NCBI RefSeq assembly: GCF_014203395.1
Contig: NZ_JACHIW010000001.1
Coordinates: forward strand, 1,364,001-1,428,000
DNA: 64,000 nt
Reading direction: 5' to 3'
From: Saccharopolyspora phatthalungensis
GTDB lineage: Bacteria; Actinomycetota; Actinomycetes; Mycobacteriales; Pseudonocardiaceae
The notes below the pieces were generated by a model. That model searched no databases. It was given only the letters and a program-made list of their open reading frames with translations, and was not told the DNA's origin. The translations under genes were made by a program, and so were the position numbers. The stretch's first letter is position 1, and every line of letters starts with the position of its first letter. Shown one piece after another: positions 8,801-50,805 of the stretch.

Positions 8801-9075
8801 ACGTTGAGCCGACGCAGGTTCTGCGCGGCGATCTGGCCGTTCGAGCAGATGTAGACGATGTCGATGCGCTCGTCGCCGGCCTCGGTCAGGTGCTCGACGG
8901 CGCGGGCGACGACGCCCCGGGCAACGTGCGTCTTGCCGAGTCCGACCTCGTCCGCGACGAGGAACCTGCCGGTTCCGTCGTCATCCCAAAGCCGTTCGTG
9001 CACGTAGTCGACGGTGGCGCGCTGAAAGTCCTTGAGGCCGCGCAGCACCTCGCCGGTCTTCGGCAGTTCGCTCAT
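5899..9075 (-). CDS. SNF2-like DEAD/DEAH helicase of a three-gene defence module
   Basis: This 1058-aa superfamily 2 ATPase has Walker A in ADEVGLGKTHVA (about 41-52), a DEAH-like DEFH box (267-270), SATPYKMY (301-308) as motif III, and in the C-terminal lobe GQEGLDFHTY and QREGRVHRF (motifs V/VI, about 880-930). The long insertion between the lobes is typical of defence helicases. Its ATG (9073-9075) overlaps the stop of the PLD gene (ATGA), so the trio DUF6361, PLD, helicase is one translationally coupled operon. The combination resembles the Azaca (ZacABC) phage-defence system as I remember it. The helicase probably remodels or unwinds invading nucleic acid for the PLD nuclease; this is inference. 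Confidence 0.82.
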   Translation of the reverse strand: MSELPKTGEVLRGLKDFQRATVDYVHERLWDDDGTGRFLVADEVGLGKTHVARGVVARAVEHLTEAGDERIDIVYICSNGQIAAQNLRRLNVIGGQQVEHADRLTMLPKALRDIDTQRVNFISFTPGTSFDITDHGGKQQERVLLYWLLERFLGSHEINLRKGYWTRFFEGYASTERFKALLRKRGESITVPETFVDDFTAALKEARTDDGRPLVRAVQDCATRFHNLRGRPEQSLSRQRYGLIGALRALVARTAVRALHPDLVILDEFHRFKDLLTGEGAGSELAGALMSNPGTRVLLLSATPYKMYTLPDEPGGEDHHEDFVATYKFLAGDDKADELRAHLRVQREALLGARDQLDGKNACVEIENRLREVMCRTERTTGNADGDSMVTERPLGTIQTDADDLRAWLGVAEVAKVLDAPDQLEYWRSAPYLLNLMDHQYKAKHALVSRCGSRDRELAKAVRNARGLLRHRDVHGYGALEASNAKMRALFHDVLDREAFRLPWIAPSLPYWTLEGPYADPELAGFTKRLVFSAWAVVPKSISVMLSYEAERRLVGSSRRNYDDRRQSQLLTFSFGADRRLAGMPVFALMYPSPTLARLGDPLRWAREHDTTLPLDRAWLMEAVTTEIQRLLDELPRSDAAVADQRWYWAAPLVLDADVNDQQAFLTQLATGGEDEEHDWSRSMAEHIERARDLDPTSLGPMPDDLAEVLAAIALAGPGTVALRALLRLSAELEPIGLDLRRFAWWISAGFRSFFNRPEIIAMLRREQATEAYWRSVLNTCLDGCIGAALDEYVHMLADTYRDADAYTKAYELAWAVYAVLGSHADAGASPSSGARTGRSYLTALNTIDDFEVRADTVTHTSHRMRSHLAQTFGRRDEDNAGRRDKELRDAFNSPFWPYVLASTSVGQEGLDFHTYCHAVVHWNLPSNPVDLEQREGRVHRFKGHAVRKNVAAAYGHQLTFKNADPWEELFEIAVRERADGHNDLVPYWICPGEAGIERFVPIIPLSREVTKKQRLLRTLGAYRLVLGQPRQDDLLAYLGEDIDHTWTRIDLRPERHR

Positions 9076-10889
9076 CGTGCCTGCTCCTGCCAGACCTGCC
9101 GTACGGGCTGCCAGAGTTCGTCGAATCCCTCGGGCAGCAGATCGACGAGGTACGGATCGGATTCCATCTCGTTGCGAAGGTTGTGCACGCGCTCCAATGC
9201 GGCGTGGTCATTGGCCAGCGCCCGCACGAACCGCTCGAACAGCGGCGTATCCGCGGTGGCCGCCCGTTTCCACCGCTTTCCTGCCTCGCCGCCGGCGAGT
9301 TCGGCGGCGAAGAGTTCCGCTGCGGCCTCGTCACCGAGCAGCAAGAGCAGCAGCCGCAGGACGTCGTCCTTGCTGCGCAGGAACTGCGACAACAGCCGAG
9401 CTCCCCGATCGGCCACGTCGCCGTGTAGCCGGGCTACCAGTAATCGCCGCCCCGTTGCGGTCACCCTGTCGCGTTGCACCTGGACCTCGACCGCGATGTA
9501 GGGCGACAGGTCGCGCAGCGTCAGCCGCTGCCAGGTCAGCTCCCGCTCCCAGTCTCGGGAGTGGGTGACGAAGCGCAACGGTGCCGGGGCGACCCGGGTG
9601 GTGCCGAGTGCGGGGACATCCGGAAGCCGCAGCAGGACGTTGAACGGCTCGACATCGCCCTCGATGAACAAGTCGAGAGGCTCGGTTGCCACGGTGCGCA
9701 GCCATTCGTCGATCTCGTATTCCAATGCCTCTACCACCGGCTCGCTCGCCGCCTCGGCGGTGGTCTCGTAGGGCATGAGGACGCTGCGGAAGCTCATCTT
9801 GCCGCTCCCGGCGTCGGCCAGAAGGCTTTCGACTCCACACGTGTCGCTGGGACCGGTCAGCGCGACACCGAATTCGACGTTGCCGTTCCACCCGGCCCAC
9901 GTCGCGTTCGCCGAGCCGCTGATCACCGTGGCCGAACCGCGTTCTTCCAGTACCAGCACCTTGGCGTGCAGGCCCGACAAGCGCGACGGCACACCGGCAT
10001 CGTGCGGTTGCTGGTCGGGTTCGCCGGAACCGTCGTCGGATTCGGCCTGTGGCTGCAGGACGAACACCGAATCGTCGGCGAAGGCATCGCCTCCCATGCG
10101 GTCGAAGGTTTCCGAGCGCGACACCCACGTGCGCTCCGCCACGTTGTCACAGACCAGAGCGGTGAATGCCGCGTCCAAAAACGGCGAGATGACCACTGCC
10201 CGGCTCACCGGACCGGCGAACGGATCGTTGCCCGTGCCCAGCCCCAGCGGCAGCAGCTCACCGGACCGGAAGGGGGCGGGCACCTCGAAGACGACGCCCT
10301 CCAGCCCCGCGACGAGATCGTTGATTTGCCGGCGGCGTTGTGCCGACACCGTGGTCACCGACCGGCCGGGTAAAGCGCTGAGGAAATCTCGCAGCGGCTC
10401 GGCGGTGATCGTCTTCCGGGCGCCGGCATCGGTTTCGTCGAGGCGCACGACCGTGTCCCAGCTGCGATCGAAGGTCAGATTCCGGCTCAGGCACACCACC
10501 CGGTGTTGGAGTTCGCCGTCAGGTGAGCGCAAACGCACTGCCCACAGCTTCGGGTGGAACAGTCGCCCCTCGGCAGGGGCGGTGACTTCATGGACCACAT
10601 CTTCGAGGTGTGCGAACAACGGCTGGTAGGACCGAGGAACCGCCAGCTCACCGGCTTGGCAGAACACAGTGGTGTGATCGGCATGCCTGCGCAGGCCGTG
10701 CAGCACCGCCACCGGGTCGTTCAACTGGCCCCGCATATCGGTGGCGTCGTGCAGTGCGAAGGTCATCGGCACCAGCAGCAGCGCGGCGAGATCGAGACTG
10801 TAGGTCGTGCCGACGGCGACGTCGACGACGTAGCCCGGCGGCGGCCGCAGCACGTCACTGAACAGGTGCCGGGAATCCGGTGCCAGCAT
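9072..10889 (-). CDS. Phospholipase D-family nuclease-like protein
   Basis: This 605-aa protein carries two PLD-type half-sites: HPKLW (about His112, Lys114) followed by the SRNLT strand, and LHAKVLVLE (about His308, Lys310) followed by GSANAT (325-330). This two-HxK arrangement is used by PLD-superfamily nucleases. An N-terminal region (1-95) of unknown fold and a C-terminal helical region (about 400-605) flank them. The start at ATG 10887-10889 overlaps by one base the stop of the DUF6361 gene (TGATG), with GGGGGAGAG as ribosome site. Within the operon it is the likely effector nuclease. The DNA or RNA preference is not visible from sequence. Confidence 0.8.
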   Translation of the reverse strand: MLAPDSRHLFSDVLRPPPGYVVDVAVGTTYSLDLAALLLVPMTFALHDATDMRGQLNDPVAVLHGLRRHADHTTVFCQAGELAVPRSYQPLFAHLEDVVHEVTAPAEGRLFHPKLWAVRLRSPDGELQHRVVCLSRNLTFDRSWDTVVRLDETDAGARKTITAEPLRDFLSALPGRSVTTVSAQRRRQINDLVAGLEGVVFEVPAPFRSGELLPLGLGTGNDPFAGPVSRAVVISPFLDAAFTALVCDNVAERTWVSRSETFDRMGGDAFADDSVFVLQPQAESDDGSGEPDQQPHDAGVPSRLSGLHAKVLVLEERGSATVISGSANATWAGWNGNVEFGVALTGPSDTCGVESLLADAGSGKMSFRSVLMPYETTAEAASEPVVEALEYEIDEWLRTVATEPLDLFIEGDVEPFNVLLRLPDVPALGTTRVAPAPLRFVTHSRDWERELTWQRLTLRDLSPYIAVEVQVQRDRVTATGRRLLVARLHGDVADRGARLLSQFLRSKDDVLRLLLLLLGDEAAAELFAAELAGGEAGKRWKRAATADTPLFERFVRALANDHAALERVHNLRNEMESDPYLVDLLPEGFDELWQPVRQVWQEQAR

Positions 10890-12091
10890 CAGCTCTCCCC
10901 CGCCGTGTGCAGGTCGTTGAGCCATCGGTCGGCCACCTGCCACCGGAAGGTCAGCCGCCCCAGTCCACTTTCCCCGGACCAGACATTGAGCGCCGCCTGG
11001 TTGTCGAACCGCGAACGACTCCCTTTCAGCGCACGCTCCCGGTTGCGCACCAGGTGGCGGGCCTGCTGACTGTCAGACACCGGCTCGCCTGTTTCGACAA
11101 TCCGGCGCCACATGCCAAAGAACTCCCGCAGCCCTGGTCTGGCCCGACGGCCGGCACGCTCGGTCATCTCCCACAGGCTGCTGTGGTTCCAGCCGATGAG
11201 GGCACCCGAGTCATCCAATTCCTGCTCCCATTCGGACAGCAAGCCACGGTATGTCTCGACCAGCTCCGTTCCGTCGGTCTGCCCGTCACTGATCTGCTCG
11301 GCGAGCATCAAGTTGTACAGCAGAACCGCGCCGTGGAAGACCACGTTGAGCCGCCGCGCGTGCTCCACGATGTCCTGCAGGTCGACGGGGAAACCGTCCA
11401 GGGCAGGGTGCTCCCAGATGTAGGCGACGCCTTGCTCATTGTGCTCGGGATGGGCCGCGAGCCAGCCCAGCAACGAGTCACCGACGCTGCCAAGTATGCA
11501 GTCCCGGAGAAACTCGGCCTCCGCACTGACAAGCTCGGTTGTGCACTCCTCGAGCCAGCCCCGCGGTGGTCCAGGCAGATTCGGGTGCAGGCCGGTCACC
11601 GCCACCGCACGACTCACCAGTGGTGCGTCGTCGACCGAACGCTGTGCGCGCATCCCTTGCCGAAACCAGCCTTGCGCACTGGTGTCAACGGTGACGATGC
11701 CGTACCGGCACAACGCGCTCCAGTACATCTCACTGGGGGTTCTGCGCAGCTTCGCTCGCGCTTCTCGCCCGATGATGCCCTCGTAATCGGTGGAACCCTT
11801 CAGCAAGGCCTCGATCGTACGCAACTCGATTCGCCGCATCCGTTGGGCCGCGGAGTCACCGCGATGGCGTGATCCGACCGCCTCCGCCATCGCCCAGGGC
11901 ACCAGGAGCAGGTAGCGCACCTTGGTGTGCAGGGTCGACGTGCCGGGGAACAACAGGTCAGCGATCGCATCGCGCACCGGGCCGATGCCGAGTTCGTCGA
12001 GAGTGCCCTTCTCTTTGAACAGCTCGACGACCTGCATCATTCGCCGTCGTTGCTCGTCATCTACATCGAGCCACCCGAACGTCGAGCCCAT
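10889..12091 (-). CDS. DUF6361-family protein, first gene of the helicase/PLD operon
   Basis: This 400-aa protein opens with FGWLDVDDEQRRRMMQVVEL, then FKEKGTLDELGIGPVRDAIA and the segment LFPGTSTLHTKVRYLLLVPW, the signature I associate with DUF6361. No catalytic motif can be read. The start at ATG 12089-12091 is preceded by GGAGG 4-5 nt away; an in-frame start 14 codons earlier lacks one. It is promoter-proximal in the three-gene minus-strand operon and is coupled to the PLD gene. Members of this family sit next to PLD and helicase genes in defence loci. Its role, whether sensor or scaffold, is unknown. Confidence 0.72.
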   Translation of the reverse strand: MGSTFGWLDVDDEQRRRMMQVVELFKEKGTLDELGIGPVRDAIADLLFPGTSTLHTKVRYLLLVPWAMAEAVGSRHRGDSAAQRMRRIELRTIEALLKGSTDYEGIIGREARAKLRRTPSEMYWSALCRYGIVTVDTSAQGWFRQGMRAQRSVDDAPLVSRAVAVTGLHPNLPGPPRGWLEECTTELVSAEAEFLRDCILGSVGDSLLGWLAAHPEHNEQGVAYIWEHPALDGFPVDLQDIVEHARRLNVVFHGAVLLYNLMLAEQISDGQTDGTELVETYRGLLSEWEQELDDSGALIGWNHSSLWEMTERAGRRARPGLREFFGMWRRIVETGEPVSDSQQARHLVRNRERALKGSRSRFDNQAALNVWSGESGLGRLTFRWQVADRWLNDLHTAGES

Positions 12092-12718
12092 CCAGCCTCC
12101 GGCCCCCACCTGGTGAACGAGGAATTCACACAATACTAATCACGCTCATGGGGCGAAACCACGATTCATCCACGCGCAATGAGGGGCTATGTAGGTACGC
12201 GGACCATTTCAACACCGATCGTCCACATTAGAGCCTCGACGGACACCCGCCGGAGCACGATCTCACAGCGGTAATTGATCAACGAATACCCCGAGCCGCC
12301 CAAAGCTGATCGTAAAACCCGAGTTCAGACCCAAGTTCTGAGCTTTGGCGCAGCACAAGGAGCACGCCACGCCCGGCTCCTACGACGTGGCCCGCACTGC
12401 CGCGGCAGGCGCCTGCCGTACGACGCTAGGCCAATCCAGTGAATGACGTCTCGCCACCGCGACACCAGGTAACGCCGGATGCCCTTATCGAGATCCATGG
12501 ATGAGGGCGGAACACGACGATGCCCATCACGCAAGCCTGAGTGGGCCAGGTGAGAGGACCACGTCGCTTTGTTCGGCAAGAATCAGTGCGCGGAGATTGC
12601 TGCACCTCAACACCGCCTGACCGCGGCGCATGCCGCGATCGCCGAGCTACGCGCGTGGGTGGTTCCAGGAACGAGGACTCGGCCCTCAACTCGTCCCTGC
12701 GAAGCTCGCAATCAAGCA
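12092..12718. other. 627-nt non-coding gap with a 16-bp palindrome
   Basis: No gene is supported here. It should contain the promoter of the minus-strand DUF6361 operon, in the AT-richer stretch 12125-12250, and of the plus-strand hypothetical gene. A perfect 16-bp palindrome CGGCAGGCGCCTGCCG lies at 12403-12418. An open frame continues upstream from 12719 to 12569 but is not convincing as coding. Confidence 0.4.
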
Positions 12719-13306
12719 ATGATCAAGTGGCGACGCTCCATACCAGGGCTATCTGGAGGATCCTTGTCAGATCCAACCCGCACCGATTGTGTAGTCGACG
12801 CTCGTGGCGAAAAGATCATCATCTGGCACGTCAACACCGGCCCAGCGGTCGGCTTGTCACGCCTAACAGGCGCATGGACCTTCGGCCTCGACGAAGTGGA
12901 CAAGGTCAAACTGCTCGTAGCCGAACGTCGCGTGCTCATGACATCAGCCGGGCAGGAGGCTCTCGACCAACTCAGCATCGCCGTCCCGGCGCGCATCGCC
13001 CCAGACGTCACTCTTGACAGTCTGCGGACGCAGCGGGACGAACTACAGGCCGCATACGACGCCCAAGAACGCGATGATCTCGTCGCTCCGACCTGGCCGT
13101 CCCTGCCCGAGCCCATTGACATGCGAAACCCGCCGAGCGCGATATCACCGGAGCCGACCCAAGTAGCGCTCGCTCTAGCTCGCTGGTTGGCGCAGGTCGC
13201 AGCCACTTGGGAAAAGATCGAGGCTCAACGTGTCGTGCGCGGGTACATGCCTGGTGGCCACAAACGTCGGCCCACTCCCATTGCAATCTCGAAGGCCGAC
13301 AAGTAA
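12719..13306 (+). CDS. Hypothetical protein
   Basis: This 195-aa product begins MIKWRRSIPG from ATG 12719. The open frame extends 50 codons further upstream to 12569, but that part is arginine/proline-rich and reads like non-coding DNA. The body has alternating beta-like segments (DARGEKIIIWHVNTGPAVGL, LTGAWTFGLDEVDKVKLLVA), an alpha-helical C-terminus and a basic tail (GGHKRRPTPI). I do not recognise the family. It sits between two defence-type genes and reads toward the exonuclease gene 289 nt downstream. The gap 13307-13595 shows nothing else. Confidence 0.45.
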   Translation: MIKWRRSIPGLSGGSLSDPTRTDCVVDARGEKIIIWHVNTGPAVGLSRLTGAWTFGLDEVDKVKLLVAERRVLMTSAGQEALDQLSIAVPARIAPDVTLDSLRTQRDELQAAYDAQERDDLVAPTWPSLPEPIDMRNPPSAISPEPTQVALALARWLAQVAATWEKIEAQRVVRGYMPGGHKRRPTPIAISKADK

Positions 13307-41000: not shown

Positions 41001-41519
41001 CTAGACCTCGAACGCGAGCGCCGATTGCGCTCCGGCGGCGTTGCGCTGCTCGAAGTCCAGGAGGTTCCGCTTCCGTTCGAGCCCGCCACCGTAGCCGGTG
41101 AGGTTGCCGGTGGAGCCGATGACCCGGTGGCACGGCACGATGATGCTGATCGGGTTCTTCCCGTTGGCCAGGCCGACGGCGCGCGAGGCGGTGGGGCGCC
41201 CGATCCGCTCCGCCACTTCCCCGTAGGAAACCGTTTCACCGTAAGGTATTTCGCGCAACGCTTCCCACACGGTGCGCTGGAACGGGGTGCCGAAAAAGGC
41301 CATCTGCAGGTCGAACTCGCTGCGCTGCCCGGCGAAGTACTCCGCCAACTGCTCGATCACCGGACCGAAAGGCTTGGCGTCCGGCTCGCCAAACACCTCC
41401 TCCGACGGGCGGTGTCGCTGCCGATCCATGTACAGACCGACCAAGACGCCGTCGGCCGCGACAAGGGTAAGCGGGCCGAAGGGGCTGTCTACGACGGTGT
41501 TTACCCGGTGCACTGACAA
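41001..41519 (-). CDS. ogt: Methylated-DNA--protein-cysteine methyltransferase
   Basis: This 172-aa suicide repair enzyme has the active-site IVPCHRVIG (Cys130), the helix-turn-helix FQRTVWEALREIPYGETVSY and the RAVGLANGKNP asparagine hinge. It removes alkyl groups from O6-alkylguanine. It lies directly behind the ada-alkA-type gene (8 nt gap) and is presumably co-transcribed as an alkylation response pair. The start is ATG 41519, within the CAT at 41517-41519. Confidence 0.93.
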   Translation of the reverse strand: MSVHRVNTVVDSPFGPLTLVAADGVLVGLYMDRQRHRPSEEVFGEPDAKPFGPVIEQLAEYFAGQRSEFDLQMAFFGTPFQRTVWEALREIPYGETVSYGEVAERIGRPTASRAVGLANGKNPISIIVPCHRVIGSTGNLTGYGGGLERKRNLLDFEQRNAAGAQSALAFEV

Positions 41520-41527
41520 TCCTCTCT

Positions 41528-42992
41528 TCAGGCTGGTAGCCGGTTGATCGCGTGGTCACCGGTCGCCCACAGGCACTGCACCGCATACGCGTGCCAGGGG
41601 CTCCAAGCGGCAGCGCGACCGGTAAGCGCGGCGGGCGTCGAGGGCAAATCCAGGTTACGGGCGGCGTACCGGACCCCCAGATCGGTCGGCGCGAAGGCAT
41701 CGGGATCGCCCAGGGCGCGCATGGCGATGGTCTCGACGGTCCACGGGCCGATCCCGGGGAGCTCGGCGAGCTGGGCCCGGGCCCGGTGCCAGTCGCTACC
41801 GACGCTGAGGGCGATGTCGCCGCCCGCCAGGGCATCGACGAGCGTGATGATCGTCTTGCGGCGCGCCTTCGGGAAGGCGAGTGTGTCCGGATCTAGCGCG
41901 GCCAACGCCGCCGCGTCCGGGAACAGGTGGCTGAGCCCGCCCGCCGGGTCGGCTATCTCCTCGCCGTGAGCAGCCACCAACCGGGCGGCATGCGTCGAGG
42001 CCGCAGTGGTGGCCACCTGCTGCCCCAGCACCGCGCGCACGGCGAACTCCTCGGCGTCCACGGTGCGCGGTACCCGGCGGCCGGGTTCTTTGTCGACCAG
42101 CGGCGCGAGCGCCGCATCGGTCCTCAGCAGGTCGTCGACGGCGACGGGGTCGGCATCGAGGTCGAGGAGCCACCGGCAGCGGGTGATCGCGGCGGACAAG
42201 TCCCGAAGATCGGTCAGGGTCAGCCGGCAGTCGATGTACTCGGGCGCTGGCCGAAGAGCGACCACGCCATGACCGTGCGGCAAGCGAAGCGTGCGGCGAT
42301 AAGCACCGTCACGCCACTCCTCGACCCCAGGAACAGCGGTGGCAGCGAGGTGCCCGAAGAGGTTGTCCGGACACAGCGGCGCCCGGAAGGGCAGCCGCAA
42401 TCCCAACGATCCGGCGGTGGCCGGATGCTGCCGGGATGCGCGCGCCCGCAACTCGGTCGGGGCTAGGCCGAAGATCTCCCGCACGGTGTCGTTGAAGGTT
42501 CGCACGCTCGCAAACCCCGCCGCGAAGGCAACATCGCTCATGGGCACGTCCGTGGTCTCGATGAGCAGCCGAGCGGTCTGCGCGCGCTGCGCCCGAGCCA
42601 ACGCAAGCGGCCCGGCCCCTAGCTCGGCCAACAGCTGCCGCTGGATCTGCCGGACGCTGTACCTCAACCGCGAGGCGAGCCCGGGAACACCGTCCCGATC
42701 AACCACCCCATCTGCGATCAACCGCATCGCCCGAGCCACCAGATCGGCCCGCTCGTTCCACTGCGGAGACCCGGGACTCGCATCGGGCCGACACCGCTTG
42801 CAGGCCCGACCCAGCCTGCTGGGCAACGGCACCACTCGGGTAGAACCGCATGTTCTCAACCTCGGGAGGCACCACCGGACAACTCGGCCGACAGTAGATC
42901 CGAGTAGTGATCACGGCGGTGAAAGACCACCCATCGAACCGAGTGTCCTTCGACTGCACGGCCCTCACACACCGAGCCACATCCTCATGCAT
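41528..42992 (-). pseudogene. alkA: Ada/AlkA fusion (3-methyladenine DNA glycosylase 2) with one-base frameshift
   Basis: The ATG at 42992 begins an Ada zinc domain (VQSKDTRFDGWSFTAVITTR, IYCRPSC). The frame must shift by one base at the CTGGGTCGG near 42805-42830 to continue with ACKRCRPDAS (third and fourth zinc cysteines), the AraC-type HTH (VRQIQRQLLAELGAGPLALA) and the AlkA glycosylase, with HhH LAELPGIGPWTVETIAMRAL and catalytic Asp in PTDLGV. Removing one G from the GGG run restores the full consensus. It is either a recent loss of the regulator-glycosylase, leaving a possible AlkA-only product, or an assembly error. It precedes ogt in one operon. Confidence 0.8.
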
Positions 42993-43142: not shown

Positions 43143-43601
43143 ATGCTCGATGCGAGTTCGACCGTCCCGGCTGGGTCTTGGGCGTCTTCAGCCGGTCGTC
43201 GGCGAAACATGCAAGCGATTCGCAACCGCGACACGAAGCCAGAGCAGGTGATTCGGCGGCTCGTCCATGCTCGTGGGCTGCGCTACCGCGTCCATGCACG
43301 TCCGTTGCCCGATCTTCGCCGGACTGCTGACCTGGTTTTCCGCCCAACGAAGGTGGCCGTCTTTATTGATGGCTGCTACTGGCACGGCTGCCCCGACCAC
43401 TACGCGTCACCAAAAATCAATTCTGAATACTGGTCGGATAAAGTAGCCCGCAATATCGCACGTGATCGTGACACTGACGAACGGCTCACCAGAGCAGGAT
43501 GGCTCGTGCTGCGTTTCTGGGAACACGAAGAATCAACCAACTGCGTCGATAAGATCGCCGCAACGGTCATTGCTCGACGGAATGGCGCCGACTCTTCGTG
43601 A
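43143..43601 (+). CDS. vsr: Very short patch repair endonuclease
   Basis: This 152-aa protein has the full Vsr signature: MQAIRNRDTKPEQVIRRLVH at the N-terminus, catalytic Asp in TADLVFRPTK, FIDGCYWHGCPDH (zinc and active-site His), YWSDKVARNIARDRDTDERL and WLVLRFWEHE. It nicks 5' of T in T-G mismatches arising from deaminated 5-methylcytosine. The likely start is ATG 43143. Its last 69 nt overlap the 3' end of dcm on the opposite strand, so the two genes have evolved together as a unit. Confidence 0.92.
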   Translation: MLDASSTVPAGSWASSAGRRRNMQAIRNRDTKPEQVIRRLVHARGLRYRVHARPLPDLRRTADLVFRPTKVAVFIDGCYWHGCPDHYASPKINSEYWSDKVARNIARDRDTDERLTRAGWLVLRFWEHEESTNCVDKIAATVIARRNGADSS

Positions 43602-44801
43602 ACCAGACAGTTCAAATTCAGGGAAGAGCCCCGCAATCTCCTGGTGTTCCGTTTCCTCTTCCATCACGAGACCTTGAAGGTAATCATCGCGCCGAGCCGG
43701 CTGCAGCACAGCCGCAATAGCCCTGCCAACAGCCTCAGCAACTGGCGGCGGAAAAGCGTTTCCTACTTGGCGATATCGTGCGGTCTTACGTCCCTTAAAT
43801 TCCCAGCCGGGAGGAAAACCTTGAATTATTGCCGCCTGCTTGACTGTCAGCATCGGCCCGGTTTCCCGAAAAATGTCCCTCTCTGGGGCGCAGTATTTTA
43901 GCTCCGGGTCGTGATCGTTGGCGACACCCATTGCGTTTATACCCAGCGCAGCCCAGGCCCGCTTAGCCCGTGTTGGCCCGAGGTCAGCACCACCATGCTT
44001 TCGAGAGCCCCCGACGAGCGTCGGCGCCACACCACGCCCCGCATGGGCTTCCTTTTCCGCCTTCTTCAGCCACCTTTTAAAGACTTCGATCCCCTTGGCC
44101 CCGTGAGCTTCACATCGCTCCAACATCGTGGCCCGCAAGGCGTCTGCTACATTGACAGGATCGCCTTCCTTTCCGATAGGCCAGATAAACTTGTTATTCC
44201 CGAGAATATCTGCCCTAATTGCAACAAGAATAGCTCGCGGACGCAGTTGCGGCACGCCGAAATCACGAGCTTCAAGAATCCGCCAAGACTGGCTAAGATC
44301 AGCCCCCCCATCCGCGACTACATAACCAAGTCGGCCAAGTTCTTTTAAGACCATCTTACGGTACGACGAAAACGTATGCCAAGGCTCAAGCAGTCCGCGA
44401 ACATTCTCTATCATGACTGCCCTGGGCTCAAGCTTGCCGACAATCTCGAGCATATCAGGGAAAAGATCACGTTCGTCATCTTTGCCAAGCTGTCTACCGG
44501 CCAGCGAAAATGGCGGACACGGGACTCCGCCAGCGAGGAGATCAATCTCTCCCTTTTTTACTTTAAATTGATCACACGGATCGTCAGCAAATTCCTTCAC
44601 ATCCGCAGAAGTAAGTTTATCGGCCTTTGTTTTCCATCCGGGCCACTTCCGAACGTTCGCCTTGAGTGTCTCAACAGCATCGTCGTCCCACTCGACAAGC
44701 GCCTTGTGCCTGAAGCCAGCCCTGTGCAGGCCGAGAGCTTGGCCTCCGGCACCTGCACAGATCTCAATCGAGGTCAGCTGTCGGCTCCTGCCGGCGCCCA
44801 T
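43533..44801 (-). CDS. dcm: DNA cytosine-5 methyltransferase
   Basis: This 422-aa C5-methylase has motif I (SIEICAGAGGQALGLHRAGF), motif IV PCPPFS (Cys95 nucleophile), motif VI ENVRG (132-136), motif VIII (PQLRPRAILV), the variable TRD (about 205-330) and motifs IX/X (RQVGNAFPPPVAEAVGRAI). ATG 44799-44801 with AAGGAG 6-7 nt upstream is the start. It ends the minus-strand run HNH-ParB-SNF2 and overlaps vsr tail to tail. The DNA is less GC-rich than its neighbours, suggesting transfer. It may protect the host while the other genes attack unmodified DNA. Confidence 0.92.
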   Translation of the reverse strand: MGAGRSRQLTSIEICAGAGGQALGLHRAGFRHKALVEWDDDAVETLKANVRKWPGWKTKADKLTSADVKEFADDPCDQFKVKKGEIDLLAGGVPCPPFSLAGRQLGKDDERDLFPDMLEIVGKLEPRAVMIENVRGLLEPWHTFSSYRKMVLKELGRLGYVVADGGADLSQSWRILEARDFGVPQLRPRAILVAIRADILGNNKFIWPIGKEGDPVNVADALRATMLERCEAHGAKGIEVFKRWLKKAEKEAHAGRGVAPTLVGGSRKHGGADLGPTRAKRAWAALGINAMGVANDHDPELKYCAPERDIFRETGPMLTVKQAAIIQGFPPGWEFKGRKTARYRQVGNAFPPPVAEAVGRAIAAVLQPARRDDYLQGLVMEEETEHQEIAGLFPEFELSGSRRVGAIPSSNDRCGDLIDAVG

Positions 44802-44944
44802 CGGCACTCCTTCTGCTTCACGCAATCGACACCAAGTGTCGCAGACGGTGATTAGCCATCCGCCACATACATCAGGAGTCTTACAGCACCAAGGATCGCG
44901 GGGTTCGGGAGGGGAAGCCGAAGCCCGCGACCACACGCCGATGG

Positions 44945-46759
44945 CTAGCTACCCATGTGCCGAATCAGAGCCTGGATGTCGCTGGCATCCAAGCCGCCGG
45001 CTACCGAAGGCTCCTCTTGGAGGTCGGACAGCTGTTGTACAGAGGGATCATCGAGGATCTTCCCCATAAACTCAAGCTTCTGGTCTAGACGCGTCTTCAC
45101 CACCTCGTCGATTGTGTCGCGTGCAGCCAAGACAGTGACCCTCGTCTCTACCTCGGGTGCGAGGCCAAGACGATGAATACGGTCGAGGCTCTGCAGGAAC
45201 CGACCTGCCATGAAGTCGCGGTCCACATAGACAGCGTCGTGGCAGACCTGGTGGAGGCTGATGCCCTCGCCCAGGGTGGCCGGATTGGACACCAATACCA
45301 TGCAGTTCTTGTCCTCCCGGAACCGTCTTAGCTGCTCGTCACGATCAAGGGTCCCGCCGTGGATCACGGCGGGTTGATACTTCTCGAGCAGCTTCTCCAG
45401 CGTTGTCAGGCTCCTCACGAAGGTCGTCCAAACCAGGGTCTTCCGGTGTTTCCGGGCATTTTCGGCAACGATGGCAACGGCCTCTTTGTACTTTGGCGAT
45501 AGCTCGTAGCTGGGGAGGTTCTGCATGAGCGTGTACAGAGACCCGGTCTGAGGAATCTCAAGTGGCGGCACTTGATACGCGAGAGGTTCGTATTTGCTTG
45601 CACCTTCCAGCAAGAGCGCGGGGCTTGTCGCTGCCATCAGCAGCCTTAGGGCCGTCTTGCCAAGCGAGCGGAGGTCGTCGCGCGCGGTCTCGCCAGATAG
45701 ATTCCCTACCAACGAGCTATAGATCTCCGCGTGCAGTGGCGGCATGCTCACGTAGCGCACACGCGTCTTCATGCCAGGAAGCCCAAGTTCATCCTTAGTC
45801 GTGCGAGTGAAGAGCGGCCGCAAGACCCTACTGGCATAGGCAAGGTCACCTCCACCAATCGCCGACGCAACAGTGCGATGCCCGTGGCCCGGCCACACAA
45901 AACCCAGGAGGTTCTCGAGGTCTTTCGCTCCGTTAGGAGCCGGCGTGCCGGTAAGGATCAGTCGTCGATACGCTAGTGGACCGAGCGCCATGCACGCCGC
46001 ACCGTACGTTCCCCGGGTCCCGAGTTTCATGCGGTGCGCCTCGTCCAGGATGATCATCGTCGGAGCCGACTTCAACCACCCAGCCAGTGTGCCGAGCGAA
46101 CGGTCCAGCCGCTCATAGTTGATGATCAGCACCTCGGCCCACGCATCCAACGAGCGGTCGTGTATATGGGTACGTAACGGGTACTGAAAGCACTCCCCCG
46201 TTTCGAACTGCCAGGACTCATAAGCGGATTTGGGGCAGACGACCACAAGACGACTAACCTTTTTCTGGGTCTTCTGTGCCGCATAAACCGCTAGAGCTAC
46301 ACGTGTCTTTCCGGCGCCCGGGACGCTGAAGTTCGCACCGTGCTGGAGAGCCAGCAACTTGGCGATGTCGCGCCGCTGAAACTCCCGTAAATCCGCCTTC
46401 CAGTCCGGTCCAAGCAGAGTGAGCACCTCATTGGCGGGAACCTCTCCGTTCTGTGCTGGCGTCTCAATGCGTGCCTTGACTGCCGCAGCGTCCTGGACGT
46501 TTCCGCGAACCAAATCCGCCAGCTCGGGCGCCCACTCCACACCACGGTGGTCCGGCCATGTGCCGATCGCGTTCAGCCGTACCAGTAGATCGTCAAGATC
46601 CACCGATACGGCCAGGAGCCCGAACTGTGTGCTCGAATGGAAACGTCCGGCCAGCTGAACGAGATCCTCGCGGTGGTCCGCGATAGTTCTCAGCACAACT
46701 TTTGTCCGCGTCTCGTCGAACCCGAGGTGTAACGACGCACCGTCAACCAGGTCGGCCAT
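44945..46759 (-). CDS. SNF2-type DEAD/DEAH helicase
   Basis: This 604-aa ATPase has a leader domain (1-115), then FQRRDIAKLLALQHGANFSV followed by PGAGKTRVALAVY (Walker A, about 147-152), LVVVCPKSAYESW (Ia), IILDEAHRM (about 237-245), LTGTPAPNGAKDLENLLGF (III), VSNPATLGEGISLHQVCHDA (V) and RFLQSLDRIHRLG (VI). The Walker A form PGAGKT is usual in this defence-type subfamily. The start at ATG 46759 shares the ATGA/GTGATG junction with the ParB gene, with GGAGGGG as ribosome site, so the two are translationally coupled. It probably translocates on DNA in the restriction-like complex. Confidence 0.88.
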   Translation of the reverse strand: MADLVDGASLHLGFDETRTKVVLRTIADHREDLVQLAGRFHSSTQFGLLAVSVDLDDLLVRLNAIGTWPDHRGVEWAPELADLVRGNVQDAAAVKARIETPAQNGEVPANEVLTLLGPDWKADLREFQRRDIAKLLALQHGANFSVPGAGKTRVALAVYAAQKTQKKVSRLVVVCPKSAYESWQFETGECFQYPLRTHIHDRSLDAWAEVLIINYERLDRSLGTLAGWLKSAPTMIILDEAHRMKLGTRGTYGAACMALGPLAYRRLILTGTPAPNGAKDLENLLGFVWPGHGHRTVASAIGGGDLAYASRVLRPLFTRTTKDELGLPGMKTRVRYVSMPPLHAEIYSSLVGNLSGETARDDLRSLGKTALRLLMAATSPALLLEGASKYEPLAYQVPPLEIPQTGSLYTLMQNLPSYELSPKYKEAVAIVAENARKHRKTLVWTTFVRSLTTLEKLLEKYQPAVIHGGTLDRDEQLRRFREDKNCMVLVSNPATLGEGISLHQVCHDAVYVDRDFMAGRFLQSLDRIHRLGLAPEVETRVTVLAARDTIDEVVKTRLDQKLEFMGKILDDPSVQQLSDLQEEPSVAGGLDASDIQALIRHMGS

Positions 46760-48183
46760 CACTTCCCCTCCAAGGAAGCCGCTTCAAGGAGCCACGCGAC
46801 TCCGTCACCTGGGTGCGGGATCCCACGTCCGGCCTGGCGGGCAAGCTTCTGAATACTGTGCCGTAACTCGACTACTGCTTCGTCGAACGCCTCTTCATCC
46901 AGGGTTTGTGAGGCGCGGGCCCGCACAAGATCCACAACGCATTGGTCGATATCTCGGCATGCCTCTGCTAGACGAGCCGGCGCCTGTTGCTTGCGCTTCC
47001 GAACCTTGGCGTCGCCTTCTGCTGTATCGAGGGCGCTTTGGAACGCCTCTTGGGCTTTGTCAATAAGCCCTTGCGCGCTCCTTTTCTCCGCCTCCGGCAC
47101 GTCAGAGGCTGCGGCTACTGCCACTGCTTTGGCACGTAAGATGTGCTTATTCAGCGCTCGCGCAGCTGTTAGTCCGGCCGATTCACCGGGGATAGAGATC
47201 CCTAGTCCGGGGACAGCCACAGCTTCCTGCTCAGCAGCGACGTCGCTCAACTCTCCCGGCAAAGTCGAGTTCAGGTAAGTCTCTGGAAAGCTTTCGTCGA
47301 TATGGCGTACGGCTGTCTTCGCGAACCCTAGGACGATCGCCGCCATCCGGATTTCCTTGAGCACGTCCGCCCGGTCAGGGTCGTCGGCCTGTGCATTCTG
47401 GTGAGCTCGGTGCAGCTCCTTGAGCTTCTCTTGGTGGTCTTCGAAGTCGATCAGTCGGAGCGCCGCACGCCCGTCGGCACTCTTGCTGCGCTTGATCTGC
47501 TCGCGAATCGCCGCGAGGATCCATTTCTCCTGCTCGTACGTTGCACGTTGAATCCGGAACTCCTTAGCAATGGCCTCTGGAGTCTTTCCCAGCGCGGCTT
47601 GTTCCTCCATCGCAAGCAGACGGTTAATGTAAGAATAGGCTCGCCTGTGATCTTTACGTAGCTGCAGCGATAACTCGACCGCATTAATGTCCGCCCAAGT
47701 AAACGACTCTGGTAGCACCGCTACCCGCATCGACTGGACGCCGAGCTCGCGGAGAGCGGCAGCGCGCGTGTTGCCGTTCACTAGGACGCCCTGATGCGTG
47801 ATGAGCCCTGGATCGCTTTGCCCGAAGTCCTTTAAGCTTTGCCTGAGCGCGTCAAAGTCCGTGTCCCGTCGGCGCGGGTCTTTCGGCTCGGCCTGGAGCA
47901 AAAACTTCAGGTAATCCTGGCTCTCGTCGCTGTACGGATCTTTGTTGAGCGTCTTATCACGAACCGGATCGTGGCTGCGCTGCGCCCGGACACGGTGGGT
48001 CGCGGGGTTGTAGTAGAGGCTGGCGAGCGGGAGGTCAATCACCTCGACAGACAACAGCTGGCCGTTCCAGTCAACTGTGACCGTCTCCCGGGTACCTCCG
48101 GCGTTTCGTACCTCCGCCAGCCTCTTCTTGATCAGCATACTGTTTTCAGCCGCACGTGGTGGCGGTGGAAACTCCCGCAGCAT
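46759..48183 (-). CDS. ParB/sulfiredoxin-like domain protein
   Basis: This 474-aa protein carries a ParB-N/Srx fold: VEVIDLPLASLYYNPATHRV (substrate-site strand), DALRQSLKDFGQSDPGLITH, and GVLVNGNTRAAALRELG (about 132-148), the phosphate-binding GNTR-type motif. A long helical region (about 150-470) follows. In defence loci this fold occurs as a nucleotide-dependent switch or nuclease. ATG 48183 is preferred, with GGGAG about 10 nt upstream; the longer frame reaching 48279 lacks one and overlaps the HNH gene. It is coupled to the SNF2 gene and 17 nt behind the HNH-like gene. Confidence 0.82.
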   Translation of the reverse strand: MLREFPPPPRAAENSMLIKKRLAEVRNAGGTRETVTVDWNGQLLSVEVIDLPLASLYYNPATHRVRAQRSHDPVRDKTLNKDPYSDESQDYLKFLLQAEPKDPRRRDTDFDALRQSLKDFGQSDPGLITHQGVLVNGNTRAAALRELGVQSMRVAVLPESFTWADINAVELSLQLRKDHRRAYSYINRLLAMEEQAALGKTPEAIAKEFRIQRATYEQEKWILAAIREQIKRSKSADGRAALRLIDFEDHQEKLKELHRAHQNAQADDPDRADVLKEIRMAAIVLGFAKTAVRHIDESFPETYLNSTLPGELSDVAAEQEAVAVPGLGISIPGESAGLTAARALNKHILRAKAVAVAAASDVPEAEKRSAQGLIDKAQEAFQSALDTAEGDAKVRKRKQQAPARLAEACRDIDQCVVDLVRARASQTLDEEAFDEAVVELRHSIQKLARQAGRGIPHPGDGVAWLLEAASLEGK

Positions 48184-48200
48184 CGCTGTTTTGCTCCCTT

Positions 48201-48890
48201 CTACTTGGTGTCTCCGCTGCCTAGCGCCTGCTTGACAGCGTCGCGTGACACCGCCGGTAGTGCCCGGTAGATCCCCCACAAGCTATCGAGCTCGCTGAAC
48301 TTGCGACGGTCCTCCTTGACCCAGCTTGCGAAGATCTCCTGCTCCAACAGGGAAAGGGACTTCACCCGACTGATCACTTCCGCGAGGTCGATCATGGTTC
48401 CACGGCCGCCCACCCGGCAGCGGTTGCACTCGGTGACGAGCTGCACGTCCAAAATTCCGTCTGGCAGCTGGACTTTGCGGCGAGCGACATCCAGTTGCGC
48501 GCTTAGCACCCCATCGTCGTAGAGATCACCTGCCGCAACGCCGCAGGACCGGCAGAGGAAGCTGTCCTCTGCCAACACCTTGGAACGCCTAGCTGCCGTC
48601 AGACTGCTATTGGGCTCACCTTTCGCCTGCCCAGGAATCCAGACTTCCGCGCCCTTCTTTACGTACCGCTGTTCCTCTTGCTTGAGAGTCGGGTCCTCGC
48701 GGTGCGTGTCGATCCGCCAGCCGTGCTTCCGAAGATCGCGCACACGCCGGTCGATCTGTGCAACATCCGGAAACGCCTCGCGCAGAGCGGTTTTCCTGAA
48801 AGCGTTACCTACCCCGACTTCGGTCTCCAGCCACAAGGCAGCCCGGATCATGCTTCCAAAGCTCGGGTTCCGCCACGATGGCAACGTCAT
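48201..48890 (-). CDS. HNH-like two-zinc-knuckle protein with N-terminal winged-helix-like region
   Basis: This 229-aa protein has an N-terminal region (about 12-90) with AFPDVAQIDRRVRDLRKHGW, like the DNA-binding part of some HNH restriction enzymes. A zinc-ribbon pair follows: FLCRSC (Cys113, Cys116) and ECNRC (Cys155, Cys158). In active HNH proteins a D-H pair sits between the knuckles. Here the equivalent stretch reads LDVARRKVQLPDG with no histidine, so catalytic activity is doubtful. The ATG 48890 has AGAAAGG about 8 nt upstream. It is the first gene of the HNH-ParB-SNF2-Dcm run and could be the target-recognition component. Confidence 0.72.
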   Translation of the reverse strand: MTLPSWRNPSFGSMIRAALWLETEVGVGNAFRKTALREAFPDVAQIDRRVRDLRKHGWRIDTHREDPTLKQEEQRYVKKGAEVWIPGQAKGEPNSSLTAARRSKVLAEDSFLCRSCGVAAGDLYDDGVLSAQLDVARRKVQLPDGILDVQLVTECNRCRVGGRGTMIDLAEVISRVKSLSLLEQEIFASWVKEDRRKFSELDSLWGIYRALPAVSRDAVKQALGSGDTK

Positions 48891-49285
48891 GAGTTCAACC
48901 TTTCTCGGTTCTTTCCAGGTTAATTGAGCGCTTCAGCCGGTGGCTGACGTGCTGACTGCCGGCCCCGGACGGTGATCAGACCTAGCCCGGCGCTGAAAGC
49001 CGTAGGCATCAGCACGCGCATCAAAGCGCTAATTTTGCGAGCTTCACAGCCAGTTCTGGGGATATTCGCCCAGAATCGGCACGATCCAGGTGTCGACCCA
49101 CAGCCCCGCGGGTTCCGCGTCTGAGGCTTGGCAACCCACCCGGTGCAGTCACGGCTCGAAACGATCAACCCGGAGCCCTTGATCTGGTTTTGCAGATGGC
49201 CTCGATGACCTGAGGTGACCGACCGCACTACGCTGGCCGCTTAAACACCCGCAGCTCGACATACGCCCCCCGACTTGCTGGTCGA
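48891..49285. other. 395-nt non-coding gap upstream of the cassette operon
   Basis: No gene is supported. It must contain the promoter of the minus-strand operon; an AT-rich stretch with AACCT/AGGTT arms (about 48907-48932) lies close to the start. An open minus-strand frame at 48920-49228 has no ribosome site and no recognisable family. Confidence 0.35.
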
Positions 49286-49498
49286 TCACTGGCGGTGACT
49301 GCGGTTATAGCTGGACGGAGCGCTCTTGCCGCCACGGACAACCCCTGTCCGGCCACCTGACCTATAGTTCGCTGCCCAGCGCGACACAGAACCCTTGGAG
49401 ACGCCGTATTCATTGGCGACCGCTGCAACGGCCGCGCCGCGCAGCCTCTTCCCCGCGATCTCCACTTTAGGCTCCGACGGAACCACGCGTCGACACAT
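49286..49498 (-). CDS. Small HTH protein (70 aa)
   Basis: The ATG at 49496-49498 follows GGAGGG at a 5-6 nt spacing, a strong start that rejects the longer frame to 49561. The product is basic with a helix-turn-helix: AAVAAVANEYGVSKGSVSRW, followed by AANYRSGGRTG. Such small homeodomain-like HTHs serve as regulators or as leftovers of transposase N-termini. It reads in the same direction as the cassette operon, 395 nt upstream, so it may regulate it. It has no catalytic part. Confidence 0.6.
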   Translation of the reverse strand: MCRRVVPSEPKVEIAGKRLRGAAVAAVANEYGVSKGSVSRWAANYRSGGRTGVVRGGKSAPSSYNRSHRQ

Positions 49499-49953
49499 TG
49501 TGCTCCCTCCAAAGGGTGTCAAGAATGAGATAAAGCCTGGCGCGCAGCAGTTCCCACGCACCCAAAATTCAGTCCCGGTTCATTCGCCGAGCATCAATCA
49601 TGCGCAGCCTTCAAGCGCGACAAAGTCACGATAATCCTCAGCATCAAAGTGCTTGCATGAAGCAACAACCAGCAGAAGGCTAACGACTTCCGTCTGGTAC
49701 GCCTACTGGCGCTGCGTCTCGTAAACCACCAGTTCCCTCAGCCTTAGGCAACCCTCCCTTACTCGTGCATCTCGGGTGGCACTTGCCTGGGCAGGTCAGC
49801 GCCAAGACAGCCACCTTGCGTGATCACCTTATTGGATACCATCAGCCACATGAGTGCACAAGCGACGCTGGAGTTTCAACTAAAAGTGCAACCACGCGTA
49901 CGGCGCGTGGCCTAGCGGCCAGCGACGGGACCGGCAGGAGGAAACGCACGACG
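49499..49953. other. 455-nt divergent intergenic region
   Basis: This AT-richer region lies between the small HTH gene (minus) and the HTH/coiled-coil regulator (plus). No gene is supported. An open frame continues upstream of the regulator start from 49954 to 49765, but it lacks a ribosome site. Promoters of both divergent genes are expected here. Confidence 0.35.
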
Positions 49954-50805
49954 ATGCCAGAGGACCGATCATTCGAGGACAAAGTGAACAGGAAACTAAC
50001 GCAAGGCGCAGTGTCCAAAGAAGAAGGTGCGCTCGCTAAGGCCCTCATTGGGCTATATGACCTACTCAAGAAACAGCCCGGGAAAAAGCTCGATAGTACC
50101 GCGAAGCGGCTTGGCATCAGCAGCAGCGCTTTGTACCGGGGGCTGACCTGCGATTCCTTCCCGTCATGGGAAATGCTTGTCAAGCTCCTGTACGAGTCGG
50201 CCTGCGACGATGCGGGCCGACTTGCTGTCGGCACAACCGACACGCAACTGAAGGGGTTGTACAGCGCAGCTGAGGCGGCACACCGGAAGCGCAGGAAGCC
50301 GCGCTGCAGCGCATGTCCTGAATACCGACGGAACATCCGCAGCCTTCAGCAGCAGGTGCTCGACCTTCAGCAGAAGGTCTCGGAGTTACTGCAGGAAGCC
50401 CAAGCCCTGCGGGCCGACAAGGCGGTCTTAGATGCAGCACTTACGGTGCAACACAAGTCGGCACACCTGCCGGTCCCCTCTCGGAAGGGAGACCGGCAGC
50501 GCAGCACCTCCGACACCTCTGCCGCAACGCAGCTTGCCGCCGAAGTTGCCACACTCTTCGCCGACGGGCAGCGCGAGGCAGCCCTCGCGGTTCTTCGGGA
50601 GATCCCAGGGCTGCTTACACCGCGAGATAGCGCAGCTTCCGTTGCCCTGCTCCGCCGACAAGAGCTGGATAAACCCGCAGAGACACTGATCCAGATCTAC
50701 AGCCGTGAGCAGCCCGAGAAAGATGTGATGCGCTTCGCTCTGGGACTGCAGGAATTCGATCTCGCCAACGACGCCGGCAACGCTCTGCGAATTGCTGTTG
50801 GATGA
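49954..50805 (+). CDS. HTH/coiled-coil regulator-like protein
   Basis: This 283-aa protein has an N-terminal helix-turn-helix (LDSTAKRLGISSSALYRGLT, about 45-64), a CxxC-bearing basic segment (RKRRKPRCSACPEYRRNIRS), a leucine-rich coiled coil (about 122-160) and a C-terminal helical domain (about 185-280) with AATQLAAEVATLFADGQREA. I recognise the layout as an actinobacterial regulator type but not a named family. ATG 49954 is preceded by AGGAGG 11 nt away. It is divergent from the small HTH gene and cassette, and is the likely regulator or sensor of the system. Confidence 0.65.
   Translation: MPEDRSFEDKVNRKLTQGAVSKEEGALAKALIGLYDLLKKQPGKKLDSTAKRLGISSSALYRGLTCDSFPSWEMLVKLLYESACDDAGRLAVGTTDTQLKGLYSAAEAAHRKRRKPRCSACPEYRRNIRSLQQQVLDLQQKVSELLQEAQALRADKAVLDAALTVQHKSAHLPVPSRKGDRQRSTSDTSAATQLAAEVATLFADGQREAALAVLREIPGLLTPRDSAASVALLRRQELDKPAETLIQIYSREQPEKDVMRFALGLQEFDLANDAGNALRIAVG

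Follow-up and report, generated by a model that had tools for sequence, protein, structure and literature searches.

The stretch of Saccharopolyspora phatthalungensis DNA analysed here (64,000 nucleotides of contig NZ_JACHIW010000001.1, positions 1,364,001 to 1,428,000; hereafter the window) contains a cassette of five genes, which encode a relative of HNH nucleases, a ParB-fold protein, an SNF2-type ATPase, a C5-cytosine methylase (Dcm) and a Vsr-family endonuclease, and which together would be a variant form of restriction-modification. The composition of the cassette, its conservation, the loss of catalytic residues and the shared history of its genes are demonstrated, and all functional steps are ones that we infer from the sequence. 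Tentatively, and at somewhat less than an even chance, the cassette is read as restriction-modification-like: the HNH relative, which lacks its usual catalytic residues, would read unmethylated sites, and the ParB-fold protein and SNF2 ATPase would spread from there and disable incoming DNA.

A conserved five-gene unit

The five genes are a real unit, beyond chance, since all of them occur together in 85 of 87 related loci. Of these loci, fetched by ParB similarity, 7 come from 298 drawn genomes of the order (not counting the window's own locus) and 80 are the best among 178 relatives confirmed in genome contigs. The two exceptions, L015 and L016, carry distant ParBs and no HNH protein. Co-occurrence of the families in other genomes had been proposed as a check in an earlier prediction made from these letters (the original prediction), and they are indeed syntenic. 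The HNH, ParB and SNF2 genes are co-oriented in 83 of the 85 loci, the HNH gene being inverted in L013 and L014. The methylase and Vsr genes mostly follow in the order SNF2>methylase><Vsr, are flipped to SNF2>Vsr><methylase in 15 loci, and are placed otherwise elsewhere, also upstream.

Further counts refer to 92 distinct cassettes, without L015, L016, L153 and L157; plasmid L186, which came from another search, is not counted, and two of the 92 (L017 and L044) belong to one metagenome bin. An HNH-like protein without the catalytic His is present in all 92, Dcm in 91 and Vsr in 91. A search with the ParB protein scored 7,997 candidates, of which 1,017 are relatives at E<=0.001, and among the 120 listed, all with a stated source organism are actinobacterial. 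The cassette is patchy: it occurs in 8 of the 298 genomes drawn from the order and in 9 of the 394 drawn from the class, with the own genome counted in both. No cassette relative was found in the viral contigs and phage records searched, at the sensitivity of those searches. A contig labelled as a Clostridia metagenome-assembled genome (L088) carries a typical actinobacterial cassette, with its HNH row beside Microbispora, and is likely a binning error.

An HNH relative without its catalytic residues

The HNH-like protein (48201..48890, minus strand, 229 amino acids) combines a winged helix with a putative HNH-like zinc fold in which the catalytic His and Asn are replaced. In the primary HNH copy, the catalytic His is absent from 92 of 92 cassettes, with Arg in its place in 89 and Q, D or V in divergent cassettes; all three catalytic positions are altered together, and the four zinc Cys are kept. 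The primary copy therefore lacks the His and Asn that mark an HNH nuclease. The description of an "HNH-like zinc protein" stands as regards the zinc Cys and the HNH relationship, but the usual catalytic residues are gone, and the protein is better called a relative of HNH nucleases.

The loss follows the company of the protein. In class-wide draws of 394 genomes, ParB was found in nine (own included), all with a His-less HNH relative, whereas nine of the ten ParB-less genomes that have an HNH relative keep the His (Fisher p=1.2e-4). Eight of these ten hold such a methylase, with neither ParB nor SNF2, and all eight keep the His; in two of them the pieces lie on separate contigs. In a tree of 107 HNH rows, a branch with 99/95 support separates the cassette copies (91 rows) from the rest; the tree omitted L153 and L157 (on contigs shared with L077 and L092), L144, L182, L185 and copies shorter than about 150 residues, L181 among them. 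The five rows nearest to that of the window are, by label, four Pseudonocardiaceae and one Nocardiaceae. Because the His is lost in the cassettes and kept in ParB-less relatives, and the cassette branch is supported, it seems that the HNH protein gave up catalysis on becoming a partner of ParB and SNF2.

The relationship itself is visible through the relatives. The His-bearing protein of L142 matches PF01844 at 8.8e-08, over the cut-off, and those of L178, L075 and L138 at 3.9e-04 to 0.007, below it; the window's protein gave no HNH profile match in the same comparison. Foldseek alone gave no match to the HNH fold under E 0.001, and a search of solved-structure sequences with HNH and ParB profiles gave no convincing match. 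In L022, L033 and L079, an extra upstream HNH copy has Leu in place of the catalytic His, a loss distinct from that in the primary copies.

Could the protein still cut, with the conserved Arg137 and Glu154 forming an atypical active site? Arg stands at the former His position in nearly all cassettes, both residues are invariant in 48 aligned rows, and catalytic residues differ among HNH enzymes according to the available portion of PMC4081073. Set against this, the three catalytic positions have changed together, the Q, D or V of divergent cassettes means that no single replacement is kept at the His position, and Glu154 is found in only 84 of 86 rows of the larger set. An active HNH-like nuclease is consequently rated as very improbable, and the protein would instead act as the reader of unmethylated sites.

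The ParB-fold protein and the SNF2 ATPase

The ParB-fold protein (46759..48183, minus strand, 474 amino acids) consists of an N-terminal ParB/Srx domain (residues ~46-178), KorB/Noc-like DNA-binding helices (~180-300) and long C-terminal helices. Its predicted model (predicted local distance difference test score, 89) matches ParB, KorB and Noc over the N-domain and the DNA-binding helices, so that both a ParB N-domain and a DNA-binding domain are present in the predicted structure. The ParB/Srx identity that had been proposed is thus upheld by the predicted fold, but not by Pfam, which returned no ParB match. The nucleotide motif is altered, reading N[GA]N[TSC]R in 82 of 83 rows. The SNF2-type ATPase (44945..46762, minus strand, 605 amino acids) matches PF00176 at 1.2e-15 and PF00271 at 2.3e-07, and its Walker A, DEAH and RxHRxG motifs are kept in 83 of 83 rows. 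Its relatives in the PDB are SNF2 remodellers and one SNF2/Rad54-family helicase, and no nuclease family was recognised in it. The ParB-fold protein would be a nucleotide-gated clamp, loaded at the site found by the HNH-like reader, and the SNF2 protein the source of movement driven by adenosine triphosphate; unmarked, likely foreign, DNA would as an outcome be blocked or silenced.

The same architecture bears on whether the ParB-fold protein might itself be the nuclease of a cutting restriction complex, with the dead HNH protein as reader and SNF2 as translocase. Nicking of DNA by ParB/Srx proteins is cited in the available part of PMC12839542, the ParB fold is confidently predicted, and more than half of the cassettes (54 of 92) lack the other nuclease types that were sought. 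However, the fold resembles that of ParB, KorB and Noc proteins, which bind cytidine triphosphate and carry DNA-binding helices, that is, the architecture of a clamp; no nuclease motif was identified, and the nicking claim concerns other family members. Such a complex is considered unlikely.

The methylase, Vsr and the likely methylated site

The methylase (43533..44801, minus strand, 422 amino acids, recognition segment APTLVGGSRKHGGADLGPTRAKRAW) matches PF00145 at 5.5e-57 and TIGR00675 at 2.5e-41, profiles of sequence-specific methylases, the specificity itself being predicted; its catalytic PC and ENV motifs are each kept in 82 of 83 rows. Its best PADLOC profile is DruM2 (2.9e-109, among the 25 of 58 families listed). 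The Vsr protein (43143..43601, plus strand, 152 amino acids) matches TIGR00632 at 6.9e-40 and, on residues from 43185, PF03852 at 2.2e-19, and is the sole Vsr match at E<=0.001 in its own assembly (8.54 Mb, 6 contigs).

Across 82 loci and the window, the methylases fall into two classes of 70 and 12 rows, with L071 apart. Vsr groups track these classes except in 5 of 83 rows (L035, L076, L081, L077 and L088), L013 and L071 standing apart, and the same HNH cluster accompanies both classes. Distances in this set, from which 3 of 85 loci with short proteins were omitted, correlate at 0.82 for HNH-ParB, 0.81 for HNH-SNF2 and 0.93 for ParB-SNF2, at 0.54-0.69 with Dcm and at 0.30-0.59 with Vsr. The recognition segment PT-VGGS-KHGGADLGPTRAK is common to both methylase classes, and is found in 108 of 114 methylase open reading frames (ORFs) above 200 bits, ParB-less ones included; a count over a smaller set of loci gave 104 of 110. 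On these comparisons the cassette is made of two modules: HNH, ParB and SNF2 of one history, and methylase and Vsr, which are exchangeable or flippable while the recognition segment stays constant. A single methylation specificity seems to accompany the restricting module, although the segment also marks a wider methylase clade, so that its constancy falls short of proof. In second-class methylases (L011, L020, L036, L054, L067, L089 and others), a C-terminal extension has an RRI..L pattern that is reminiscent, by eye, of the winged helix in the HNH-like protein.

NaeI cuts GCCGGC. Since NaeI-like enzymes neighbour 24 of the 92 cassettes, the likely methylation target, by analogy, is GCCGGC. 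NaeI is named in the available portion of PMC4081073, where its site is printed differently from GCCGGC. In the window GCCGGC is the lowest palindrome composed of G and C only, at 0.66 of expected; this is not so in the pooled loci, and word counts do not settle the target. The methylase would mark self DNA, probably at GCCGGC-like sites. As the recognition segment is kept even across the second methylase class, a system that discriminates by 5-methylcytosine is still the best reading, and to that extent the modification-discriminating restriction complex proposed earlier survives, with the roles of HNH and Vsr changed.

Vsr-family proteins repair T:G mismatches that arise from deamination of 5-methylcytosine, and the protein of the cassette would do the same where its methylase has acted. 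Because Vsr adjoins the methylase also where ParB and SNF2 are absent, it probably serves as the methylase's customary repair partner rather than as an effector. A mismatch nickase had been counted as joined into the complex; the gene is there, but that role probably is not.

Associated nucleases and plasmid relatives

An unbiased neighbour search, followed by Pfam assignment, yielded NaeI-family enzymes, DUF3883/NOV_C proteins and one regulator family. Besides the NaeI-like genes, one of whose products matches NaeI 1ev7 at 9.4e-13, the 92 cassettes include 19 with a NOV_C gene and 7 with a His-bearing HNH match. At least one of these three nuclease types is held by 38, and none by 54, window included, of which 42 were covered by at least 19 kb. 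NaeI-like genes also occur in ParB-less methylase loci (L141, L145-L149 and L178). As for a cognate endonuclease with an intact site, the window has no ORF of NaeI type, NOV_C type or His-bearing HNH type, the only types sought. In the own genome, neither a NaeI-like match (in a search without a positive control) nor a NOV_C match (controls matched) was found.

ParB and SNF2 are also found in other company. Plasmid records gave 5 ParB matches, and in 5 of 5 a DUF3883 gene follows ParB-SNF2. On four alphaproteobacterial plasmids (Kozakia, Rhizobium, Mesorhizobium and Azospirillum; L187-L190), the order is an unrelated front protein, then ParB, SNF2 and DUF3883. The front proteins (280-319 amino acids) resemble one another as a single family but matched no catalogued one; there are 410 relatives, with no telling name among the 120 listed. 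Three of the four plasmids carry an annotated cytosine methylase, distantly like that of the window (21-34 bits), as well as Vsr matches. Because these plasmid loci pair ParB-SNF2-DUF3883 with another front protein or with none, the ParB-SNF2 pair may be an effector able to serve more than a single reader, and DUF3883 may be its older partner.

One observation weighs against a dead HNH reader that guides ParB and SNF2 to unmethylated sites. The Streptomyces albidoflavus plasmid L186 has ParB-SNF2-DUF3883 (8995-13131) but lacks matches to HNH, methylase and Vsr across the 19.4 kb covered. The plasmid weakens also a more specific proposal, restriction without cutting, in which the dead reader would load the ParB clamp on unmethylated DNA and SNF2 would drive the clamp to silence or strangle the invader, ParB-SNF2 serving as a general effector on different readers. 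Generality is suggested by the unrelated front protein that the alphaproteobacterial plasmids pair with ParB-SNF2-DUF3883, and the proposal as a whole is regarded as doubtful.

Plasmid L186 at the same time raises the standing of cutting by an added or separate nuclease, be it DUF3883, NaeI-like, an HNH protein with His or one not recognised, the window's own having been lost, lying elsewhere or being of an unsought type. This is in keeping with the 38 cassettes that have one of the three types, with the constant DUF3883 of the plasmids and with NaeI-like genes in loci that lack ParB. It sits poorly with the 54 that have none in the stretch covered, with the negative searches of the own genome, limited as described, and with HNH-ParB-SNF2 as the most constant part, and it is rated as decidedly unlikely. 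Under the favoured reading of a dead HNH reader with a ParB-SNF2 effector, cutting, if any, would be done by the added nuclease in the 38 loci having one.

A probable regulator of one subgroup

Upstream and divergent lies a gene for a probable regulator (49954..50805, plus strand), whose helix-turn-helix (HTH) and coiled-coil regions were read by eye and which has no Pfam family over the cut-off. Relatives were found in 53 of 87 loci (tblastn E<=1e-3), and it has a single match in the own genome. Among the fetched loci that were scored, the regulator occurs in 49 of 52 nuclease-free versus 4 of 33 nuclease-bearing cassettes, an association that follows HNH subgroups and may reflect descent only. 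A dedicated divergent regulator, as first proposed, thus holds for the window's subgroup of cassettes but is not general to the unit.

The company of a dedicated regulator in nuclease-free cassettes could also be taken to mean that the cassette acts on its host, methylation state across many sites controlling a ParB/SNF2 silencing complex as an epigenetic regulator and not as defence; an influence of 5-methylcytosine on the differentiation of Streptomyces coelicolor is reported in the part of PMC10148868 that was available. Patchy presence, low G+C, methylase and Vsr exchange and the company of restriction enzymes speak against such a function, which is judged improbable.

Gene layout in the window

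The Vsr, methylase, SNF2, ParB-fold and HNH-like genes lie where the original prediction had placed them, as sequence and profile matches confirm, apart from refined starts: ATG 44801 for the methylase and ATG 48183 for ParB, with ATG 49954 (or GTG 49765) for the regulator. The convergent arrangement of Vsr and methylase, with 3' ends overlapping by 69 bp, is likewise borne out. Of the tight junctions, the ParB/SNF2 overlap at GTGATG and the 17 nt between HNH and ParB are confirmed, but that between SNF2 and methylase is not tight if the methylase begins at ATG 44801 (143 nt, or 8 nt from the upstream GTG 44936). G+C is 0.56-0.61 in the cassette versus 0.67-0.69 in the flanks, which fits acquired DNA.

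A small HTH ORF (49286..49561), once included as a member, was rejected, with matches in 0 of 87 related loci (tblastn E<=1e-3) and only weak ones, to transposase HTH domains. Beside Vsr, at 41001-42859, are ORFs that by eye resemble those for an Ogt-type alkyltransferase and for an Ada-AlkA fusion, both of them common in DNA repair.

Relation to known systems

As had been supposed, no named system has this set: PADLOC, Pfam and NCBIfam contain none, and a PADLOC or NCBIfam assignment was rejected since single genes only match parts of other systems (for the methylase, among the 25 of 58 PADLOC families listed). The searches made of the open-licence PMC literature found no description of the gene set.

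The cassette resembles type II restriction-modification systems of the NaeI kind (M, R and V genes) in its C5-methylase, its Vsr and, in 24 of 92 cases, a NaeI-family enzyme, and in its relatives without ParB and SNF2 the partner of such a methylase is an HNH protein with the His intact. It differs in that its HNH partner, without catalytic residues, stands alongside ParB and SNF2, and the window has no NaeI-like gene. MORC/paraMORC restriction systems share an SNF2-family helicase with HNH, Vsr and cytosine methylase genes, but have a GHKL ATPase where the cassette has the ParB-fold protein, and a dead HNH is not mentioned in the available part of the description (Iyer et al., 2008; PMC2292703). 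With DISARM and Druantia II, the likeness is an SNF2 helicase (DrmD-like stretch) and a C5-methylase (DruM2 best profile). The cassette SNF2, however, reaches 38.7 bits, where the DrmD cut-off is 610; among the nine locus ORFs scanned, no match was shown to DrmA or DrmB, nor to DruE, DruF or DruG, DruM being the only Druantia II component among the matches listed (methylase: 25 of 58 families listed).

ParB, KorB and Noc clamps share the N-domain and DNA-binding helices, by predicted structure, but the cassette protein has no Pfam ParB match, carries extra C-terminal helices and has a methylase and SNF2, not ParA, as operon partners. GmrSD- and SspE-type restriction factors unite a ParB fold and an HNH fold in one unit, from which the cassette differs by separate ParB and HNH genes and by the lost HNH residues. 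For GmrSD, the combination of ParB and HNH is stated in the available part of PMC12839542.

Significance

If the favoured reading is true, a restriction system has given up its own nuclease and recruited a clamp of the chromosome-partition type together with a motor of the chromatin-remodeller type. Living relatives, in which the HNH protein with its His is paired with the methylase, are available for comparison, and the cassette makes the question of whether unmethylated DNA can be disabled without cutting open to experiment in laboratory Streptomyces. As a gene set widespread in actinobacteria, to judge by its 1,017 ParB relatives, it might also hinder the transformation of antibiotic producers.

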